From assembly GCA_022804995.1 (NCBI GenBank), contig JAAWUC010000010.1, positions 1 through 32,642 on the forward strand: DNA of 32,642 nucleotides, given 5' to 3'. The notes beneath the pieces were generated by a model. That model had not been told where the DNA came from. It saw only the letters and a list, made by a program, of their open reading frames with translations, and ran no database searches. Of this stretch, positions 5,333 to 20,260 are shown piece by piece. This DNA is from Oscillospiraceae bacterium (lineage in GTDB: Bacteria > Bacillota > Clostridia > Oscillospirales > Oscillospiraceae). How positions within the stretch are numbered: the stretch's first letter is position 1; the number at the start of each line of letters is the position of its first letter. A program made the translations under genes and the position numbers.

Positions 5333-5361
5333 TTGACAGGGCGGGAAAATGACGGTATACT
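5333..5361 (+). promoter_or_regulatory. Sigma-A promoter driving the riboswitch leader
   Basis: A perfect TTGACA (5333-5338), a 17-base spacer and TATACT (5356-5361) place the transcription start near 5367-5369, exactly at the first base of the aptamer. It begins only 12 bases after the rqcH stop. Confidence 0.85.
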
Positions 5362-5366
5362 CAAAA

Positions 5367-5491
5367 GCGTAAAGGGAGTAGCCTGCACAGTGCGGTCTGT
5401 GTTCGCTCAGCCGTCAATACGATTTTAGAATCCGGCTTTGTGATGAAATGGCGAGACTTTGCCGCGCGGCAGCGGCAAAGTCTCGCTTTTT
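5367..5491 (+). promoter_or_regulatory. yybP-ykoY-type (manganese) riboswitch with terminator
   Basis: The leader carries the conserved AAAGGGAGTAGC (5371-5382), a variable hairpin CACAG/CTGTG (5386-5390 with 5397-5401), then GCCG (5410-5413), the TCAATAC internal-loop strand (5414-5420), the GATT/AATC stem (5421-5424 with 5429-5432) and the closing CGGC (5433-5436). It ends with the diagnostic GGCGAGACTTTGCC. Helix P1 pairs GTAAAG (5369-5374) with CTTTGC (5457-5462), which is the 5' arm of the terminator. Ligand binding that stabilises P1 would therefore block termination and turn the gene on. Known members sense Mn2+. The sequence match is strong, but the ligand here is inferred from family. 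Confidence 0.85.
5451..5491 (+). terminator. Regulated intrinsic terminator of the riboswitch
   Basis: A perfect 15-bp stem (5451-5465 with 5472-5486), a six-base loop and TTTTT at 5487-5491 form a textbook terminator. It lies 40 bases ahead of the controlled gene. Its 5' arm is shared with aptamer helix P1. Confidence 0.92.
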
Positions 5492-5531
5492 GATACATGA
5501 GGGATAAATAACCAGTAAAGTGAGGAAAGCT

Positions 5532-7160
5532 ATGACATTTGCGGAATTAATGCTTTTTGCGGTCCGGCTGCTGGCCGGGACGGGGGTCTTTCTGGTGGGC
5601 GTCCACCTGCTGACCTCCAACATTGAGCAGCTGGCCACGGGAAAAATCAAGGAGCTGTTCGGAAAAACCGCCGACAGGCGGCTGGTCAACGTGGGCATCG
5701 GCGCGGCGGCCACGGCGCTTATCCAGAGCTCCGGCGTGACGACGGTGCTCATTGTGGGCTTTGTCAACGTGGGTATCATGAATCTGTACCAGGCGGCGGC
5801 CATGATTATGGGCGCCAACATCGGTACCACCGTCACCGCCCAGATCGCCGCCCTGAGCACCTTCCCCATCACCACCTATATCCAGGTGCTGGTCTTTGTG
5901 GGCATCATGATGAGCATGGTGTGCCGTCGGGACGGCCCGAAGCGGACAGGCATGATTCTGGCGGGCCTGGGGCTGATTTTCATCGGCCTGGCTTTGATGA
6001 GCGACGCCATGAAGGCCAACCGGGACGGGATTCAGGTCCTCTTTGAGACAGTGACCAACCCCTTCCTGCTGTTCCTGCTGGGCATCCTCCTCACGGCTCT
6101 GGTCCAGTCCAGCTCGGCCACCACCTCGGTCATTATTGCCATGTCGGTGGCGGGGCTCACCATCGGCACCGGGGGCAACGAGGTGCTGTATATCATCCTG
6201 GGCACCAACATCGGCTCCTGCGTGACGGCCCTGATGTCCTCCGCCACCGCCGGGACCAACGCCCGCCGGGCAGGGCTTATCCACCTCCTGTTCAACACCG
6301 GGGGATCGCTGCTCTTCTTCGCCCTGATGGCCTGCTGGCCCGGCTTTATGGAGGCGACCTTCCGCCGGTGGTTTGCCGCGCCGGCCACCCAGATTGCCAT
6401 GTTCCACACCTTCTTCAACGTGACCTGCACCGTGCTGTTCCTGCCCTTCTGCGGCGTGTTCGTGAAGCTGTCGGAGTTTTTTATCAAGGACACGGAAAAG
6501 AAGCCCCAGGAGCCCGCGACCTGCCTGGACGAGCGTATGCTGGCCACCCCCTCTCTGGCGATCTCTCAGCTGGAGAAGGAGCTGGTCCGCCTGTCCGACA
6601 CGGCCATGGGGGCTTTCCGCGTTGGATACCAATCCTTCGCCGAGAAGGACCGGGAGCTCATCGCGCCCACCCACGAGCTCATTGACCGGGCCAACGCCAT
6701 CAGCCAGTCCATGGTGGACTATATCATCCGCCTGGCCGCCAGAAACAAGCTCACCGGAAACCGGGCCATTTCCGACCTCCACAGCAACGTGGGCGATGTG
6801 ATGCGTATCGCGGAAATCGCCGACAACTTCACCAAGTACACCCATCGGACCATGGAGAGGAACCTGGACTTCTCCGAGGGGGTCAAGGCGGAGCTGGACC
6901 GGATGGTGAGCTGTGTGGAAAATCTGTATATCCTCACCCGCCAGGCCGTCCTGGACCGGGACGCCAGCCTTCTGCCGGAGATTGACCGGACGGAGAGCGA
7001 AATCGACGCCTTCCGCAAGCAGCTCATCGACGGCCACATTGAGCGGCTGAACCAGGGCGCCTGCCGCCCTGAGAGCAGCGGCGTGTTCATCAATCTGGTG
7101 TCCAACCTGGAGCGGCTCGGGGACCATCTGACGTATATCGCCCATACCGTTCAGCAGTAG
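5532..7160 (+). CDS. Na/Pi-cotransporter family protein with PhoU-like domain
   Basis: A 542-residue inner-membrane protein. Two inverted Na/Pi-cotransporter repeats carry the signature QSSGVTT (65-71) and QSSSATT (192-198), each followed by hydrophobic helices. GANIGTTVTAQ and GTNIGSCVTAL are the matching second motifs. A cytosolic helical C-terminal domain (about 340-540) is PhoU-like, as in YjbB/NptA-type proteins. ATG 5532 is preferred over GTG 5520 because GAGGAAAG lies just upstream. Phosphate movement is the family expectation. The manganese-type riboswitch directly upstream suggests a role in metal or metal-phosphate homeostasis. A convergent terminator follows. Confidence 0.9.
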   Translation: MTFAELMLFAVRLLAGTGVFLVGVHLLTSNIEQLATGKIKELFGKTADRRLVNVGIGAAATALIQSSGVTTVLIVGFVNVGIMNLYQAAAMIMGANIGTTVTAQIAALSTFPITTYIQVLVFVGIMMSMVCRRDGPKRTGMILAGLGLIFIGLALMSDAMKANRDGIQVLFETVTNPFLLFLLGILLTALVQSSSATTSVIIAMSVAGLTIGTGGNEVLYIILGTNIGSCVTALMSSATAGTNARRAGLIHLLFNTGGSLLFFALMACWPGFMEATFRRWFAAPATQIAMFHTFFNVTCTVLFLPFCGVFVKLSEFFIKDTEKKPQEPATCLDERMLATPSLAISQLEKELVRLSDTAMGAFRVGYQSFAEKDRELIAPTHELIDRANAISQSMVDYIIRLAARNKLTGNRAISDLHSNVGDVMRIAEIADNFTKYTHRTMERNLDFSEGVKAELDRMVSCVENLYILTRQAVLDRDASLLPEIDRTESEIDAFRKQLIDGHIERLNQGACRPESSGVFINLVSNLERLGDHLTYIAHTVQQ

Positions 7161-17646: not shown

Positions 17647-17677
17647 AGAAACTCTTTCAGAAAGTCAGGTGAATCCC

Positions 17678-20260
<2,583 letters not shown>

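Follow-up and report, generated by a model that had tools for sequence, protein, structure and literature searches.

A putative yybP-ykoY-type metal riboswitch upstream of Na/Pi-cotransporter-PhoU genes in Clostridia

The leader of a Na/Pi-cotransporter-PhoU (NaPi) gene in an Oscillospiraceae genome contains an aptamer of the yybP-ykoY type, as confirmed by its architecture and by covariation, and the same RNA recurs upstream of related genes. The leader is probably an ON riboswitch acting on transcription, and the protein under its control is probably a phosphate exporter or a restrictor of phosphate entry. The RNA type is known; its phosphate-transporter target appears to be new. The window analysed here is the whole stretch of 32,642 nucleotides, one contig within a 2.43-Mb genome. 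Its features at this locus are as follows.

5333..5361, + strand: sigma-A-type promoter, TTGACA at 5333-5338, 17-bp spacer and TATACT at 5356-5361, read from the sequence.
5368..5467, + strand: putative yybP-ykoY-type metal aptamer, from models R1 and R2, covariation and folding.
5414..5420, + strand: L3 loop UCAAUAC (TCAATAC), closed by a G-C pair, from the sequence compared with that described in PMC6754395.
5450..5491, + strand: intrinsic terminator, its 5´ arm being the 3´ strand of P1 and its end T5487-5491, from folding.
5532..7160, + strand: Na_Pi_cotrans-PhoU gene (NptA/YjbB-like), 542 aa, from Pfam, NCBIfam and relatives.

The transcript is predicted to start just 5´ of the aptamer, and a loose promoter pattern occurs at most 50 nt upstream of 16 of the 33 RNAs found at NaPi loci. 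P1 pairs 5370-5374 with 5457-5461, and one fold adds 5367-5369 with 5463-5465. The AAAG of its 5´ strand (5371-5374) is followed directly by L1, GGAGTAGC, at 5375-5382; P2 spans 5385-5402 and P3 about 5404-5443. Within the P3 arm, L3 is flanked by GCCG (5410-5413), by GATT and AATC (5421-5424 and 5429-5432) and by CGGC (5433-5436), and GCGAGACTTTGCC lies at 5451-5463. These motifs had all been named in the first-pass annotation of the leader, and each is found where it was placed. A5416 in L3 is the counterpart of L. lactis A41, an invariant adenosine that binds the metal. This adenosine is present in all 199 matches from genomes of the window's taxonomic class and in 91 of 93 from outside it, the remaining two not being scorable. 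P1, L1 with GGAGUAG, P2, and P3 with L3 are thus all in the leader, and they covary. The P4 helix and its four-way junction are absent, with about 7 nt between P3 and GCGAGAC; P4 was not treated as defining, and by eye it is also missing from the MntP-linked relatives L063, L068 and L070. The encoded protein matches Na_Pi_cotrans (PF02690, 160.8 bits) and PhoU (PF01895, 51 bits) above the cut-offs, which bears out the earlier naming of a Na/Pi-PhoU protein as the riboswitch target.

A match to the Rfam model RF00080 (Manganese) above threshold had also been proposed, and here the prediction failed: the leader gave no match at the gathering cut-off (45 bits) or even at E ≤ 10. Nor did the model match at E ≤ 0.001 in the host genome or at E ≤ 0.1 in 20 related loci, and with stricter filters it exceeded its cut-off in none of 196 genomes of the window's class. 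Sub-threshold matches occur in 14 of these 196, where they precede P-type ATPase, MntP, GDT1-like, CaCA and HtpX genes. Because the model is insensitive in this class, its miss is weak evidence on membership; RF00080 was dropped as a criterion, and the element is not filed under it. For the same reason we built two models of our own. R1 was built from 16 family leaders, the window sequence among them; a G-C-closed L3 in all 16 biases its surveys towards that loop type. R2 was built from RNAs found before MntP, GDT1 or TerC genes, 25 in all, and does not contain the window sequence; its independence is partial, as R1 was used to collect and align its members, some of which came first from RF00080. 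In the whole window R2 finds a single match, at 5368-5467 (36.5 bits, E 4.6e-7, the E-values being rough), and in a whole-genome search it finds the leader with E 3.4e-5. The assignment to yybP-ykoY made in the first pass accordingly stands on architecture and on a model of other RNAs, and not on recognition by RF00080. Matches to mir-553, mir-8186, mir-4841 and BSnc120 were below their cut-offs, were positioned on the terminator hairpin and were rejected.

Conserved pairing in the aptamer exceeds chance. In an alignment of 91 homologues, which was fitted to the structure, 91.4% of the cells are paired, compared with 62.3% for shuffled and at most 46.6% for slid controls, and 692 cells have two-sided changes against 203. 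Of the five measures, one does not discriminate: two-sided changes occur at 25 of 27 pairs, a count that 40 of 500 shuffles also reach. When 5364-5465 is folded, AAAG pairs with CUUU to form P1, at a stability that 110 of 200 shuffles equal or better (z 0.17), and the fold of 5368-5466 is a different structure in which this P1 is absent. As folding energy does not favour P1, the evidence for this helix is covariation, not energy. For the terminator, folding of 5364-5495 gives a hairpin at 5450-5487 with a z of -4.16, and none of 200 shuffles is as good. The mutual exclusion of P1 and a 15-bp terminator proposed earlier is supported, one strand of P1 being common to both and the hairpin having 15 Watson-Crick pairs plus one G.U. 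A terminator sharing the P1 strand is present in 190 of 199 homologues, a figure that falls to 22 of 199 once the sequence downstream is shuffled; at one NaPi locus, L104, no recognisable terminator was found.

From this overlap we infer the direction of control. P1 and the terminator compete for one strand, the 3´ side of the former and the 5´ arm of the latter. For aptamers of this type it has been shown that Mn2+ steadies P1 and blocks the terminator (PMC6754395; PMC11087558), and metal is accordingly expected to activate the gene. At low metal, the 3´ strand of P1 would join the terminator and transcription would end before the gene. Mn2+, and possibly also Ca2+, would occupy the L1-L3 site via A5416 and hold P1, the terminator would not form, and the Na/Pi-PhoU gene would be transcribed. 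By exporting phosphate or restricting its entry, the protein could then serve metal-phosphate balance at high divalent metal. One review presents Mn2+ riboswitches as loosely metal-specific OFF switches (PMC11477304), contrary to the experimental papers.

The association with Na/Pi-PhoU genes is recurrent. R1 gave 60 matches in 53 of 120 genomes of the window's family, and five of these precede Na/Pi-PhoU genes, in five genera. A pattern search added a sixth case; it covered 300 family genomes and matched in 22, and the reversed-pattern control gave none among the matches listed. Four of the six proteins share 72-76% identity; against these four the remaining pair reaches 31-33%, and its two members are 48% identical. 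The RNA is present even at L132 and L133, where the NaPi genes are only about 31% identical to that of the window. A second sample consisted of the best 80 of 323 relatives by protein similarity, two of which are the window's own protein, and it overlaps in part with the genomes of the family survey. Here R1 found the RNA at 32 of 80 relatives (33 matches), and R2 found the same 32. All 32 fall among the 50 relatives with at least 58% identity, and none among the 30 below 58%. The expectation by chance is about 0.1 match in the same DNA, an estimate taken from the density in the family survey, where the search thresholds differ. The RNA is directly upstream in 29 of the 32, ending 49-251 nt before the NaPi protein match, and in the other three a Na+/Ca2+ exchanger gene lies between the two. 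The order RNA-CaCA-NaPi is seen at L262, L263, L277 and L134, and at L271 the CaCA and NaPi genes are adjacent, each preceded by its own RNA. Among 93 loci outside the window's class, for which first genes only were considered, none has NaPi as the first gene, which suggests a pairing restricted to the class of the window. The pairing put forward in the first pass is therefore real and recurring. The view that it is an unexpected one also held: among the matches listed in the open-access literature, we found no earlier report of a yybP-ykoY or manganese riboswitch with a Na/Pi-PhoU target, which may be mentioned elsewhere.

The RNA is absent from 18 of the 50 close NaPi relatives, two of which have less than 250 nt of upstream sequence. 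Upstream of NaPi at three of the loci, L245, L284 and L264, inspection by eye shows terminator remnants and a seemingly degraded aptamer, and it looks like the switch is being lost there. Such loci raise the question of whether the window, too, holds a mere constitutive attenuator, its aptamer inherited or decaying and its gene no longer under metal control in this species. We regard this as improbable given that promoter, P1, L1, L3 and terminator are all intact in the window and that L3 reads UCARUAC in 29 of the 33 RNAs at NaPi loci.

Other targets place the NaPi gene in a wider setting. In the window's class, 199 distinct matches precede genes for P-type ATPases (60), CaCA exchangers (32), OadB (24), CitMHS/ArsB-like proteins (18), GDT1 (11), flotillin-like proteins (10), MntP (9), Na/Pi-PhoU (6), SPFH proteins (6), TerC (4) and HtpX (2), with one unexplained cluster of four members and 13 others or none. 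The families are BLAST clusters named from representatives, and the shares are not a census because three kinds of search (RF00080, pattern and R1) were pooled to obtain the loci. As RF00080 misses most members found in this class, annotation of the regulon is probably incomplete. In B. subtilis, TerC proteins are reported to co-purify with FtsH, HtpX, FloA and FloT (PMC10246235), which may explain flotillin and HtpX as targets of a manganese switch. Among rarer arrangements, the RNA at L180, L230, L231 and L234, in four genomes of one genus, lies before what by eye is a long, secreted-looking protein, with no Pfam match for that at L230. Odd targets at L331, L332 and L335, at L342 and L370, at L219 and at L167 include a protein of unassigned family, proteins that by eye are LemA-like and ribonucleotide-reductase-like and, from its Pfam match, a KUP-type K+ transporter. 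At one place in G442 (L069/L158), tandem aptamers 410 nt apart lie upstream of a GDT1 gene.

In the host genome R2 finds two further such RNAs. One (L419, G000:C68:8597-8691; 43.9 bits) precedes a gene identified by eye, through its resemblance to L002, as encoding an OadB-like beta subunit of the Na+-pump decarboxylase, and lies directly downstream of a second Na/Pi-PhoU paralogue. The other (L103 588-717, in G000:C66; 23.5 bits and E 0.07 with R2, 56 bits with R1) precedes a flotillin-like SPFH gene, and its L3 starts with ACA rather than UCA, yet is G-C-closed. No credible yybP-ykoY-type RNA was found near the MntP gene of the host, and Cation_ATPase_N has no match in its genome. Elsewhere in the window, 17669-20260 encodes a CopA-like copper P-type ATPase that has copper-chaperone-like domains at its two ends.

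The ligand is probably Mn2+, by analogy with characterised relatives, and Ca2+ or mixed sensing is rather unlikely. Ca2+ stays a candidate because the leader of S. pneumoniae mgtA is described as a "Mn/Ca2+-sensing yybP-ykoY family riboswitch" (PMC11434433). Some RNAs with the yybP motif are stated to precede genes "not consistent with Mn2+ sensing", and the same paper, referring to work in preparation, holds that other divalent ions are probably sensed by some variants (PMC7266159). Of the earlier wording, a manganese-type switch, the type is thus retained, and Mn2+ itself becomes an assignment drawn from relatives, with Ca2+ beside it.

A specific form of the calcium alternative holds that RNAs with a G-C-closed UCA loop sense Ca2+, or Mn2+ and Ca2+ alike, and run a calcium-phosphate-sodium programme of Ca2+ exchangers, PMR1-type ATPases, Na/Pi-PhoU proteins and the Na+-pump decarboxylase. 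The partition of loop types within the class argues for it. Here L3 is A-U-closed in all 24 MntP, GDT1 and TerC RNAs and of the G-C type in all 66 OadB, CitMHS/ArsB-like, flotillin-like, SPFH, NaPi and HtpX RNAs; MntP and GDT1 RNAs in and outside the class together are A-U in 29 of 29, unlike the window. CaCA exchangers are frequent targets of the G-C type (26 of 32 within the class, 17 of 17 outside), and the CaCA-NaPi gene pairs under the RNA would suit the programme as well. Such a partition suggested a rule by which A-U loops mark Mn exporters and G-C loops other genes, and the rule held within the class except for P-type ATPases and CaCA. It fails outside the class for TerC, a family reported to function in Mn export (PMC10246235), in which 18 of 20 RNAs are of the G-C type (15 of the 20 proteins were named by motif, and 3 of those 15 confirmed in Pfam), and we therefore no longer take loop type to determine the ligand. 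Further points tell against a calcium subclass. The P-type ATPase tree requires 12 changes of loop type, and well-supported branches make 7 of these unavoidable. (The trees are quick ones with some long branches, covering 59 of 60 P-type ATPase and 31 of 32 CaCA proteins after short ones were dropped; one P-type ATPase row, L123, scores G-C in the alignment and A-U by eye, and the counts keep the alignment score.) Two NaPi RNAs, L285 and L286, carry the A-U type, as with MntP and GDT1, and the L. lactis RNA, with L3 UCAAUUC, is described as a Mn2+ structure (PMC6754395). On balance we rate a calcium-sensing subclass as rather improbable. Less probable still is the broader proposal that the branch of these RNAs with the G-C-closed UCA loop is, in Clostridia, a calcium or joint Mn/Ca switch linking the export of Ca2+ and of phosphate with the Na+ gradient, with CaCA exchangers, PMR1-type ATPases, Na/Pi-PhoU and OadB as one regulon. 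If true, it would provide a natural Ca2+ riboswitch and a direct control circuit from metal to phosphate.

Several targets move Na+ (OadB, Na/Pi, CaCA and possibly the CitMHS/ArsB-like proteins), and a sodium-responsive variant might be imagined, with OadB the target in 24 of the 199 matches and the unrelated Na+ riboswitch also targeting oadB (PMC9337991). We hold this to be very improbable: the RNA has the divalent-ion site known from yybP-ykoY, invariant adenosine included; the model of the Na+ riboswitch, RF03071 (Sodium), has no match in the window; and SPFH, HtpX, GDT1 and MntP, also among the targets, are unrelated to sodium.

Returning to a divalent-metal ON switch, most likely with Mn2+, we turn to the protein. 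By analogy with YjbB, reported as a Pi exporter, it most likely lowers cytosolic phosphate by export at high divalent metal. The transport direction could be the reverse, since S. aureus NptA is described as a phosphate importer (PMC13170248), and an importer helping to bind metal as phosphate is a possible role. In a sequence search of solved structures, only two SLC34 chains matched the protein. Two suggestions had been made earlier. For transport of Mn by this subfamily we found no support, phosphate export or restriction being a better fit to the relatives. The same fit speaks for phosphate being adjusted at high Mn, with the reservation that Ca2+ is a candidate too. A phosphate transporter, at times beside a Na+/Ca2+ exchanger behind one RNA, thereby joins the targets of a very widespread class of metal riboswitches, and the genomic pattern suggests that gut Clostridia may adjust phosphate as metal ions rise. 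It also makes testable the remark in PMC7266159 on yybP RNAs that precede non-Mn2+ genes and perhaps sense other divalent ions.

Compared with known systems, the protein resembles the NptA/YjbB Na+/Pi proteins in having Na_Pi_cotrans repeats and a PhoU domain, which in S. aureus NptA is said to affect the PhoPR system (PMC13170248). It differs in its leader, the sources consulted naming no riboswitch for those proteins. The Na+ riboswitch (RF03071, DUF1646), which 2 of 120 genomes from the family of the window contain, is similar in preceding some oxaloacetate decarboxylase genes (PMC9337991) and is otherwise an unrelated RNA. With the yybP-ykoY aptamers of L. lactis and X. oryzae, as these have been described, the window shares the P1/L1/P3/L3 layout, the invariant L3 adenosine, the P1 strand common to the terminator and, if our reading is correct, the ON logic. 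L3 departs from that of L. lactis at one of seven positions, UCAAUAC as against UCA41AU43UC (PMC6754395). Unlike the crystallised aptamers with their four-way junction, the window RNA has three helices and lacks P4, and it differs from the L. lactis and X. oryzae RNAs in targeting a phosphate transporter and in being unrecognised by RF00080. The closest relevant Rfam model is SSRC10 (RF02617; 21.9 bits against a cut-off of 56), which has the same L3 (CGUCAAUACG), no P4 in its consensus, a similar linker before GCGAGAC and a terminator, and whose downstream gene is not a phosphate transporter. In S. pyogenes SSRC10 precedes a putative calcium transporter, and it has a 67% homologue in S. pneumoniae, which we infer to be the same RNA as the mgtA leader. 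Filed as a Streptococcus sRNA, SSRC10 has the core of a yybP-ykoY aptamer and looks like a misfiled metal riboswitch.
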